From Haloferax mucosum ATCC BAA-1512 (GTDB lineage Archaea; Halobacteriota; Halobacteria; Halobacteriales; Haloferacaceae), in contig NZ_AOLN01000018.1 in NCBI RefSeq assembly GCF_000337815.1, positions 434,001 to 498,000 of the forward strand: a stretch of 64,000 bases of DNA, given 5' to 3'. The position numbers and the translations under genes are program-made. A model generated the notes under the pieces. It had not been told where the DNA came from, searched no databases, and saw only the letters and a list, made by a program, of their open reading frames with translations. Below, one piece after another: positions 23,067 through 27,266 of the stretch; positions within the stretch are counted from its first letter, which is position 1, and each line of letters opens with the position of its first letter.

Positions 23067-24992
23067 ATGGCACTCGTCACACCCGCGACGACCCGGTGGG
23101 CCGCCGTCGCCGTCGCGCTCGTGTTCGTTCTCGCAAGCGTCTCGTTCGTCGTTCCCGCCGCAGGCACCGTCTCGCCGGTCCCGTTCGACGACACGGTGAA
23201 AACCGGCGGCACGTCGGTTGACGTTCGACTCTCCGAAGTCGAGGGCTTCGAAGTCCCCGTCGCGCAGGCGCACTTTTCGCGGTATCGCTACGTTATCGGC
23301 TACTACGACGTGGCGACCGCCGCCGCCGACGTTTCGACCAAAGAGAGCGCCCGGCAGTTCGGCGACCCGCTCGCGGTGTTCGTCACCGACTACGCGACGG
23401 TCGCACCCACAATCGACGAAGACGGCTATCTCCGCACGAAACACAATCGCCACCCCGGGTGGGTCAAAGCGACAGACGCCGCGTTCGTCGTCGATTCGGG
23501 CGCTCGCGTCCCGTCCGGACCCATCGCCGTTCCGTTTTCAGATGCCGACGCCGCACGGTCGTTCGCCGACGAACACGGCGGCGACGTCGTCGATTGGCGT
23601 CGTCTCAAGGACCGAACCGACAGTCCGCTCTCGTCTCGAATCGACGCGTTCGAATCGTCCGTCGCGTCCCACCACGACTGGGCCAACCAGACCGTCACTG
23701 CGAGTGATGCACTGTTCGACCGCCCGGTTTCGACCGTCGTCGGCGAAGATGTACCCACCGTCGAGGCGGCCGTCGAGGCGGCACCGAACGACACCGCCGT
23801 CTACGTCCCTGCGGGCACCTATGCGGTCGAGTCCGTCGATGTGAACCGCTCGATTACGCTCGTCGGCGACGGCAACGAGACGACACTCGTCGGCGACGGC
23901 AACGATACCGTCGTCCACGTCCGCGCCGACCACGCCGCCGTGGCAGACCTCTCGATTGCCGGCGTCGGCGATGTCGGAACCCGCAGGATTCGGGCGACGA
24001 ACGAGTCAGTCGATTGGGACACCCGCGTCGAACTCGCATACGGCCGCGGTGACGCCGGTATCGTCCTCGACGGCGCGAACGAATCGGCGGTCCGAAACGT
24101 CCGCATCGACACGCCCGCAAGCGGCGTCATCGTCCGCGAGAGCGCGAACAGCGTCCTGAAGAACCTGACCGTTCAGGGCGCTTCGGAACCCTCCGACGGA
24201 TTCATGGGCGTCGTGCTCATCGGTGAGCGCTCGGTCGTCGAAGACTCCACGTTTCTCGACGGCCGTGACGGCGTCTACACCCACCGCGCCGACGGGAGCG
24301 TCATCAGAGACAACCACATGGAAAGCGGCCGCTACGGCGTCCACGAGATGTACACCTCGAACGTCCTCATCGCCGACAACGTCGTCCGCGACAACCGTAT
24401 CGGGGTTATCATCATGACTCGCCCCGTCGGCAATCTCGTGGTCGGAAACGACGTTCGGAACTCGAATTTCGGCTTCATTCCCGCCGGAAGCGACACCTAC
24501 GTCGCCGACAACGTCTTCGCAGACGGCGAGTACGGCATGGACGTCAGCGGCGACAGGCAAGTGTACGTTCGGAACGTCGTCGTCGGAAACGACATCGGCG
24601 TCCGCGGAAGTTCGACGTTCCCGACGAACGTCGTCGTCCGCAACGATATCGTCGGAAACGACGTCCAGGTAGAATCCTCGCTCGGTCCCATGCGGACGTG
24701 GACCCGCGAGGGCGACGGCAACTACTGGGGCGACTTACCGCTCGAAGACGCCAACGACGACGGCGTGTACGACAGAGCATACCAGCCGACCGGCCCGGTC
24801 GATTCCGCGCTCGGTCGGGACCCCGCGGCGCTCGCTCTCTCTCGGTCGCCTGTGATGGGCGCGCTCCGGCGCGCCCGCGACGACGTGTCCGGCCTTCGTG
24901 GGTCCGGTGTCGTCGATGCCGCGGCCCGAACGAAACCGGTGCAACCGGACGTACTCGCAGACCGCAACGCGACGGAGACCGAAGATGTCTGA
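23067..24992 (+). CDS. Secreted NosL-like/NosD-like fusion protein
   Basis: A 641-residue exported protein. Residues 1-33 are a Sec-type signal peptide. About 35-200 contain a NosL-like segment: KATDAAFVVDSGARVPSGPIAVPFSDADAARSFADEHGGDVVDW matches the core of that copper-chaperone family. From about 220 to 590 there is a right-handed beta-helix of the NosD/CASH type, beginning PTVEAAVEAAPNDTAVYVPAGTYAVESV and followed by repeated VV-DN, SN-V and GIGV turns. I see no cysteine at all, so the lipobox and Cys copper ligands of lipoprotein NosL are missing. With the next two genes it forms a NosDFY-like module, but no nosZ is in the window; the cargo is unknown. Confidence 0.85.
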   Translation: MALVTPATTRWAAVAVALVFVLASVSFVVPAAGTVSPVPFDDTVKTGGTSVDVRLSEVEGFEVPVAQAHFSRYRYVIGYYDVATAAADVSTKESARQFGDPLAVFVTDYATVAPTIDEDGYLRTKHNRHPGWVKATDAAFVVDSGARVPSGPIAVPFSDADAARSFADEHGGDVVDWRRLKDRTDSPLSSRIDAFESSVASHHDWANQTVTASDALFDRPVSTVVGEDVPTVEAAVEAAPNDTAVYVPAGTYAVESVDVNRSITLVGDGNETTLVGDGNDTVVHVRADHAAVADLSIAGVGDVGTRRIRATNESVDWDTRVELAYGRGDAGIVLDGANESAVRNVRIDTPASGVIVRESANSVLKNLTVQGASEPSDGFMGVVLIGERSVVEDSTFLDGRDGVYTHRADGSVIRDNHMESGRYGVHEMYTSNVLIADNVVRDNRIGVIIMTRPVGNLVVGNDVRNSNFGFIPAGSDTYVADNVFADGEYGMDVSGDRQVYVRNVVVGNDIGVRGSSTFPTNVVVRNDIVGNDVQVESSLGPMRTWTREGDGNYWGDLPLEDANDDGVYDRAYQPTGPVDSALGRDPAALALSRSPVMGALRRARDDVSGLRGSGVVDAAARTKPVQPDVLADRNATETEDV

Positions 24993-25794
24993 AGGAGATA
25001 CCGCAGTTCGAGACGCGACAGAGGACGAATCGACGACCGAGAGCACCGGGGCCGCGCGGCCGGCTATCGAAGCGACCGACCTCTCGCACGCGTTTGGCGA
25101 CATTCACGTGCTCGAAGGCGTCTCGCTCTCGGTCGAACCCGGTGAAATCGTCGCGCTCGTCGGGCCGAACGGCTCGGGTAAATCGACGCTCCTCCGATTT
25201 TTGGCGCGGGTGCGAACCCCCGACGAAGGAACCGTGTCTGTCGGCGCGAGCGGACAAGGAGAAGACGACAGACGCGAGGGCCAAGGCGGCCACAACCGCG
25301 TCGGCTATCTCCCCCAGCAACCCGGCTTCAGAGACGGCTTTTCGGCGGCCGACACGCTCCGATTCTACGCACAGTTCGCCGACGGCGACGTGGACGTCTC
25401 GGAGATACTGACCCACGTCGGTCTCGTCGAGGCGTCGGACCGCCGCGTCGATGCGCTCTCCGGGGGGATGACGCGCCTGCTTGGACTCGGCCGTGCGCTC
25501 ATCGGCGACCCGGCGGTCCTCGTCCTCGACGAACCCGCGAGCGGACTCGACCCCGGAATGGTCGAACGACTGTTCGATATCGTCTCGGAACTCGCCGATT
25601 CGGGCGTCGCGGTCGTCCTCTCGTCGCATAACCTCGGTCCCGTCGAGCGTACCGCAGACCGCGTCGCCGTCCTCGACGGCGGCCGGTTCGTCGCCGACGG
25701 TCCACCAGGTGAGTTGGTCGAAGCAGTCAGTGCGGCCGACCTCCAGACGGCATTCGGCGAGTTCGTCTCGACCGAGGAGGTCGAAGGGAGATGA
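24985..25794 (+). CDS. ABC transporter ATP-binding protein, NosF-like
   Basis: A 269-residue ATPase. Walker A is GPNGSGKST near residue 64, the Q-loop is YLPQQPGF, the signature is ALSGGMTRLLGLGRAL, Walker B is VLVLDEPASGLDPG, and the switch His lies in LSSHNLGPVERTADRVAVLDGGRFVADGPP. Its N-terminal 30 residues are an acidic extension. The ATG at 24985 overlaps the stop codon of the NosL/NosD gene by 8 bases and its own stop overlaps the permease start (ATGA), so the three genes form a tightly coupled operon. It should power the permease encoded next. Confidence 0.93.
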   Translation: MSEGDTAVRDATEDESTTESTGAARPAIEATDLSHAFGDIHVLEGVSLSVEPGEIVALVGPNGSGKSTLLRFLARVRTPDEGTVSVGASGQGEDDRREGQGGHNRVGYLPQQPGFRDGFSAADTLRFYAQFADGDVDVSEILTHVGLVEASDRRVDALSGGMTRLLGLGRALIGDPAVLVLDEPASGLDPGMVERLFDIVSELADSGVAVVLSSHNLGPVERTADRVAVLDGGRFVADGPPGELVEAVSAADLQTAFGEFVSTEEVEGR

Positions 25795-26597
25795 GCGACG
25801 TCGAAGACCTGTTCGCCATCGCGGCGCGCGAACTCCGGACGGTCGTCCGAACGCCCGCCGTCGTCGCGCTCGCGGTCGTCTTTGGTCTCACCGTCGTCGC
25901 CGTCGCGGCCGCGGGAACCGGCGCTCGCGGCGGGTATGTCCCGCTCGTTCTCGACCTCGTGCCGTTTGTCGAGGCGCTCGTGCCGCTTCTCGCGTTCGCG
26001 CTCTGTTATCGGGCCGTCCTTTCGGACCGACAAACCGGCGAGTTGGACGTGCTCCGGACGTTCGACGTGTCTCGTCTCTCGTACGTCGGCGGCGTCTACC
26101 TCGGGCGGAGCATCGCGCTCGTCGTGGTCGTCTTCGGTTCGCTTCTCGTCGCGGCCGCGACCGTGCCGGTGTTGTCACCGGCGAAACCGACGTTTCTCGC
26201 GCTGAACGCGGCCGCCGATTCGCCCGTCGCGTTCGTCCGCTTTGCCGTGCTCGCGGTGGTGTTCGCGCTCGCGGTTGCCGCCGTCGCGCTCGCCGTCTCT
26301 GCCGCGGCGCGGACCGCCCGGCAGGCTATCGCGCTCGCCGTCGGCTTACTCGTCGCCTTCGTCGTCGGGGTCGATGCCACGGCAGTTGCCGGTCTCGCTT
26401 CGGGTACGTTCGGCATCGACGCGGTGCCGCTGGTGCTCGCGCTCAGCCCGAACGGGGCGTTTCGCTCGCTCGTCTTCGGCGTCGCCGTCGAGACTGGGAG
26501 CCAAAGGCCGCCGCTTGCGGCGCTCGTCGGACTCGTCGGGTGGGTCGCCGCGGCGCTCGTCGTCGCGGTACTGACTGCGTGGAAACCGGTCGAATAG
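25791..26597 (+). CDS. ABC transporter permease, NosY-like
   Basis: A 268-residue membrane protein with about six TM helices, the size and layout of ABC-2/NosY permeases: a soluble start (MSDVEDLFAIAARELRTVVRTPAVVAL), LPFVEALVPLLAFALCYRAVLSDRQTGELDVLRTFDVSRLSYVGGVYLG including the coupling helix, and later helices ending AALVVAVLTAWKPVE. Its ATG overlaps the ATPase stop by four bases. It is the last gene of the NosD-like operon and is followed 24 bases later by a convergent oxidoreductase. The transported or extruded substrate is not known. Confidence 0.88.
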   Translation: MSDVEDLFAIAARELRTVVRTPAVVALAVVFGLTVVAVAAAGTGARGGYVPLVLDLVPFVEALVPLLAFALCYRAVLSDRQTGELDVLRTFDVSRLSYVGGVYLGRSIALVVVVFGSLLVAAATVPVLSPAKPTFLALNAAADSPVAFVRFAVLAVVFALAVAAVALAVSAAARTARQAIALAVGLLVAFVVGVDATAVAGLASGTFGIDAVPLVLALSPNGAFRSLVFGVAVETGSQRPPLAALVGLVGWVAAALVVAVLTAWKPVE

Positions 26598-26621: not shown

Positions 26622-27266
26622 TCAGCCGAAGTTCTCGACTTTCGCCGCGTCAGCGTCGCCGTCGGCGGTCTCGATGGCGTCGGTGGCGGCTTCGACGAAT
26701 CCCGCGAAGCCGTAGACGAACACCTGCTCTCCCTCGACACCAGTCAGTGCATCGGCGACTGCATCTGCGAGGGCCGCGTCGTCGTCGGTGACGACCACAC
26801 TCGCGCCACCGTCGCGGAGCGCGTCGAGTCGGTCTTCGTGCGCGGGCGCGTCGTCGAGATAGACGACCGCGGCGTCGTTGTCGTCGGCGACGGCCGCTTC
26901 TGCGATGCCGACCGCCGGGCCGATTCCGGGACCGCCAGCGAGGACGACCACGCGGGCGTCGCCATCGTAGTAGCTGTCTCCGAACGGGCCGGAGAGGTCG
27001 ATGGTGTCACCGTCGGCCAACGATTCGAGATGCTGGCTGAACGGGCCGGCCTCGTCGGGGTCGATGCCGACGGTTACCTCGAAGGTGTCGCCGACGCCGG
27101 GCGACGACAGCGTGTAGAAGCGAGCGTACGATTCGCCGTCCACTTCGGCGGCGAGTTTTACGAACTGTCCCGGCTCGGCTTCGAAGCCAGTCGGCGTCTC
27201 GAACTCGATAGCGACCGTTCCGGGGCCGACACTGCGGGCCGCAGAGACGGTGACGGTTGCGTCCAT
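26622..27266 (-). CDS. FAD/NAD-binding oxidoreductase of the ferredoxin reductase type
   Basis: A 214-residue flavoprotein. The FAD domain (1-95) has ARFYTLSSPG, the R-x-Y-T/S-L-S flavin-binding motif, with EPGQFVKL before it. The NAD(P) domain has VVLAGGPGIGPAVGIAEAA and the C-terminal VFVYGFAGFVEAATDAIE. It lacks a 2Fe-2S domain. It probably moves electrons between ferredoxin or another carrier and NAD(P)H. Its gene is divergent from korAB, so a link with ferredoxin reduced by KorAB is attractive but inferred. Confidence 0.85.
   Translation of the reverse strand: MDATVTVSAARSVGPGTVAIEFETPTGFEAEPGQFVKLAAEVDGESYARFYTLSSPGVGDTFEVTVGIDPDEAGPFSQHLESLADGDTIDLSGPFGDSYYDGDARVVVLAGGPGIGPAVGIAEAAVADDNDAAVVYLDDAPAHEDRLDALRDGGASVVVTDDDAALADAVADALTGVEGEQVFVYGFAGFVEAATDAIETADGDADAAKVENFG

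Follow-up and report, generated by a model that had tools for sequence, protein, structure and literature searches.

Between positions 23067 and 26597 of a 64,000-nucleotide stretch of the Haloferax mucosum ATCC BAA-1512 genome (contig NZ_AOLN01000018.1, positions 434,001 to 498,000; the whole stretch is called the window here), three genes on the forward strand encode relatives of the NosDFY machine. The first, nosLD (23067–24992), encodes a secreted protein of 641 residues with an N-terminal Sec-type signal peptide, in which a NosL-like domain is fused to a NosD beta-helix, as judged by Pfam, sequence matches in the PDB and the translation itself. It overlaps by 8 bases with a gene for a NosF-like ATP-binding cassette (ABC) ATPase (24985–25794), which in turn overlaps by 4 bases with a gene for a NosY-like ABC-2 permease (25791–26597). 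Because of these overlaps, the three genes are very likely to be translated together. A sequence-only reading of the window had placed the three open reading frames at these positions, with overlapping ATPase and permease genes downstream of nosLD, and the open reading frame calls agree. It had also remarked on an apparent lack of cysteine in the fused protein; the translation contains none.

Domain identity of NosLD and its transporter

Is the N-terminal part of NosLD a true relative of NosL? Residues 58–181 (23238–23609) match Pfam NosL (PF05573) with an E value of 1.3e-14 and 55 bits, where the cut-off is 24, and a PDB sequence search with NosLD finds NosL chain 2hpu_A at E 0.004. A profile built on 27 fused N-terminal domains recovers the solved NosL chains, the best being 7og7_A (E 2.7e-9), and reaches an hhalign probability of 98.9 against 26 stand-alone haloarchaeal NosL proteins; the likeness is strongest over the C-terminal half of NosL. 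NosLD, a protein without cysteine, lacks the lipobox membrane anchor of NosL. An AlphaFold2 model of NosLD, made from an alignment of six sequences, has a mean predicted local distance difference test (pLDDT) score of 47, with most of the NosL region below 50, and a Foldseek search with this low-scoring model returned generic beta-helices and NosD. The Pfam, PDB and hhalign matches bear out the earlier proposal that a NosL-type segment is joined to a NosD beta-helix and, judged by these profiles, the segment is a real NosL relative.

The NosD beta-helix domain occupies about residues 221–623 (23727–24935). Pfam NosD (PF05048) matches residues 387–556 (E 1.6e-25, 90 bits against a cut-off of 23.6) and NosD chain 7o0y_A matches residues 330–623 (E 1.1e-17), while the TIGR04247 match (residues 327–621) scores 197.6 bits, under the cut-off of 300. 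The ATPase matches ABC_tran (E 1e-29) and NosF 7o0y_B (E 2.5e-35), the latter as one among many ABC ATPases matched in the PDB. The permease matches ABC2_membrane_2 (E 7.7e-8), and its single PDB match is NosY 7o0y_D (E 1.7e-7).

The sequence-only reading had left room for a lipid as the exported substrate, and the best PDB matches of the ATPase are indeed ABCA phospholipid transporters, as is typical of this ATPase class. However, NosY is all that the permease matches in the PDB, the fused protein belongs with NosD and NosL, and the neighbouring genes are copper genes and not lipid genes. No evidence for a lipid was found, and an exporter of lipid or another unrelated substrate is highly improbable; the other half of that proposal, a distinct module for the assembly or supply of another extracellular metalloenzyme, is the best reading.

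Distribution and relation to nosZ

The survey covered 391 sampled Halobacteria; the fusion was counted at E below 1e-60 and the boundary between fused and unfused proteins was set by hand. The fusion is found in 240 genomes and nosZ in 113: both occur in 88, the fusion only in 152, nosZ only in 25 and neither in 126. The association between them is weak (odds ratio 2.9), and the 152 genomes with the fusion and no nosZ show that the two are not strictly co-distributed, in keeping with the earlier suggestion that this may be a module distinct from the nos operons that serve N2O reductase. In Haloferax, an orthologue is present in 15 of 15 sampled genomes and nosZ in only three. A scan of genome contigs brought up nothing beyond close Haloferax and a single chance match, and no match reaching E 1e-30 was found outside Halobacteria in a phylum-wide sample. 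The absence of nosZ reported from the window extends to the whole H. mucosum genome, where only three weak partial matches were found; these are subunit II proteins of oxidases and carry CuA motifs. No nirK was found in this genome at E 1e-40.

The haloarchaeal nosZ operons have the order nosZ–hypothetical–nosD–nosF–nosY and thus share the D–F–Y order and the family with the module studied here. In contrast to NosLD, the NosD of all 20 such loci is unfused, and the nosZ-linked NosD of Haloferax passes TIGR04247 (363 bits, cut-off 300; 198 bits for NosLD). The fusion occurs in none of the 20 nosZ loci and nosZ in none of 68 fused loci. We therefore rejected the possibility that the fusion is the ordinary NosD of the haloarchaeal nosZ operon, since nosZ loci carry unfused NosD. 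In a tree, the NosD parts of the fused and nosZ-linked groups split with 100/100 support. The fused module is a widespread branch in Halobacteria, separate from nosZ-linked NosD. In the nosZ operons, the gene between nosZ and nosD encodes a membrane protein of some 250 residues that has no name and matches no NCBIfam family (for example L124:8334-9089, reverse strand).

Could the module be a functionless leftover from a denitrification (nos) operon that has been lost? Both nosZ and nirK are missing from this genome, as such a history would have it. However, the NosD part falls in a clade separate from nosZ-linked NosD, the nosLD frame is intact in every sampled Haloferax (78–81% identity), and in H. 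volcanii the gene product has been detected abundantly as a glycoprotein. A remnant is hardly credible on these grounds. The H. volcanii protein, nosD HVO_0892, is secreted and N-glycosylated (PMC8241124), with four N-glycosylation sites, 193 spectra and the annotation 'probable substrate copper' (PMC8241124, PMC7746861, PMC8305020). It is the orthologue by synteny, because its locus number falls between acs1 (HVO_0894) and korAB (HVO_0888/0887), and the HVO_0890-0892 system does not differ in kind from that of H. mucosum. No functional test of this system was found in the literature searched. The presence of nosFY in H. volcanii, which is without nosZ, has been noted earlier (PMC9240420). One GenBank record names a protein of the same family 'NosL/NosD', and, according to one paper, a NosD encoded on a plasmid of H. 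mediterranei bears the label of the NosL family.

Copper ligands and partner genes

Stand-alone haloarchaeal NosL proteins carry a nearly invariant Cys-x-x-Cys-x-Met motif and a second Met, and the CxM motif of NosL is considered to bind Cu(I) (PMC6530538). In the fused NosL-like domain all of these residues are replaced. The doubt raised earlier about copper handling by the normal ligands is thus well placed for the fused domain; however, the NosD part offers an alternative route, because it keeps conserved His and Met residues, so copper handling need not use the fused NosL segment. The candidate metal residues are M380, H406, H426, M428 and M450 (24204–24416). In an alignment of 75 fused, 21 nosZ-linked and the Pseudomonas stutzeri NosD proteins, H426, M428 and M450 are conserved in 74 of the 75, in all 21 and in P. 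stutzeri, and only the fused family typically has H406 and M380. The spacing of the candidate residues, about one beta-helix turn apart, suggests that they may stack as a ladder, although this comes from spacing and not from structure.

P. stutzeri NosDFYL (7o0y, 7osf) shares with the Haloferax module the NosD beta-helix, NosF, NosY, a NosL partner and the conserved H-x-M and Met residues. It differs in that the Haloferax module is without NosZ and falls in a separate clade, and the Haloferax NosD has an extra His and Met and an additional fused NosL-like domain without copper ligands.

The fusion does not replace NosL: 231 of the 240 genomes with the fusion also carry a canonical stand-alone NosL (odds ratio 327), usually adjoining. 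The recurring order is NosL–NosLD–NosF–NosY, or NosL lies just downstream on the opposite strand, and 48 of 68 fused loci have a stand-alone NosL no more than 3 kb away. Canonical NosL occurs without the fusion in 11 genomes, all of which have nosZ; none of the 391 genomes has canonical NosL with neither the fusion nor nosZ. A haloarchaeal family, f4 (L115, L110, L111, L108 and L106), has a second fused NosLD copy, mostly without adjoining nosFY; the neighbours of this copy are SCO, DsbD_2 and a second lipoprotein resembling NosL, which carries a CxxCxM motif.

The situation in Haloferax is peculiar. Among the labelled rows of the tree, loci with the order acs–mut–[NosL]–NosLD–F–Y–FAD oxidoreductase–korA–korB fall together on the same side of one branch (support 100/98), and two loci without the acs-to-korB synteny nest within it. 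NosL is present in the syntenic group of related genera but missing from it in Haloferax; H. mucosum has a separate NosL gene on another contig. In this remote NosL, EDDQGGM replaces CDxCGM in 10 of 10 examined genomes carrying the orthologue. Such proteins (L011:8305-8988, reverse strand; G000:C4:14328-14774; also L143-L148, L150, L152 and L153) have lost both motif cysteines and retain Met residues and the lipobox. Because of the EDDQGGM motif, the doubt about normal copper ligands is right for Haloferax and extends to the likely partner NosL; as far as sequence can tell, the copper-ligand chemistry is altered in this genus. The flavin adenine dinucleotide (FAD)-binding oxidoreductase of the syntenic order is encoded in the window by a short gene at 26622–27266 on the reverse strand, facing nosY; most syntenic-clade loci retain this gene in the interval from nosY to korA.

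SCO1/SenC is a copper chaperone of CuA oxidases. An SCO gene lies within 5 kb in 15 of 68 fused loci, compared with 0.26 expected, and SCO co-occurs with the fusion with an odds ratio of 11.8 (in a subset of 194 genomes). DsbD_2 membrane proteins also recur near fused loci, and a few loci have cytochrome oxidase subunits, P-type ATPases or cydB.

Neighbouring genes also bear on an alternative in which the machine exports a sulfur compound, in the way suggested for the supply of sulfide to CuZ, for another exported Cu-S or thiol-dependent protein. Several loci carry genes for TusA, DsrE, YeeE, rhodanese or persulfide-dioxygenase-like proteins. However, rhodanese is found in three of 68 loci and a metallo-beta-lactamase/rhodanese protein in four, compared with 51 for NosL and 16 for SCO; 152 of the 240 fused genomes have no CuZ enzyme, and the near-constant pairing with a copper chaperone suits copper better. 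A sulfur cargo is unlikely.

A proposed role in copper supply and its clients

We propose, with a probability of about 55%, that nosLD–F–Y, together with NosL, is a NosZ-independent relative of the NosDFY(L) machine that passes copper to exported copper proteins. NosF and NosY would form a membrane ABC engine carrying the secreted NosD beta-helix. The separate lipoprotein NosL, whose gene adjoins the module in most haloarchaea and lies at another place in the Haloferax genome, would be the usual Cu(I) donor and give copper to the His and Met residues in the NosD part. Movement of NosFY, powered by ATP, would let NosD dock on its client and release it. The fused NosL-like domain, from which the normal copper ligands are missing, is best read as an adaptor that might serve as a fixed docking or hand-off platform. 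Several findings are new as far as the literature searched shows: how the fusion is distributed, how nearly obligate its pairing with a stand-alone NosL is, its link to SCO, the loss of ligands from the fused domain, and the set of conserved His and Met residues.

Several observations weigh against copper supply of this kind. SCO adjoins only a minority of loci, in few lineages, and never the Haloferax core locus; some fused loci adjoin sulfur-handling genes instead. The co-occurrence counts and odds ratios ignore shared descent. Haloferax has no local nosL, and the motif of its remote NosL is altered, so cargo or ligands may have changed.

Which proteins might receive the copper? CuA heme-copper oxidases, working with SCO, are tentatively the most likely client class; the H. 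mucosum genome encodes three CuA oxidase subunits and neither nosZ nor nirK. For an orphan NosDFYL of the bacterium Parageobacillus, an alternative recipient of the copper has been proposed (PMC13068155). It resembles the haloarchaeal module in having NosL and NosDFY without nosZ, but its NosL is a separate lipoprotein and no fusion is described. A NirK-like protein was proposed as the recipient there (PMC13068155), and copper might likewise go to NirK, halocyanin or a multicopper oxidase instead of CuA oxidases. The gene nirK occurs more often in genomes with the fusion (78 of 127) than in those without it (25 of 67). The association is weak, however; 49 of the 127 fused genomes, that of H. 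mucosum included, have no nirK, and SCO is more strongly associated with the fusion. Recipients of this kind are therefore rather unlikely to take the place of CuA oxidases, and NirK as the sole client was rejected, since this Haloferax genome has no nirK. Taken as one claim, that the haloarchaeal NosDFY branch carries copper and not sulfur, that its client is a CuA oxidase or some other copper protein that is not NosZ, that the permanently fused pseudo-NosL is a docking adaptor and that Haloferax has gone on to evolve a cysteine-free copper relay, the whole is possible but doubtful.

Views of the NosDFY cargo differ, with sulfide favoured in one case (PMC6530538) and copper in another (PMC13068155). 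In 145 of the sampled Halobacteria, NosL and NosLD are kept without NosZ; with no NosZ, these genomes have no CuZ centre. Thus, nosZ-free Halobacteria provide a setting in which copper supply could be separated from sulfide supply, and which could reveal a second job of the NosDFY machine.
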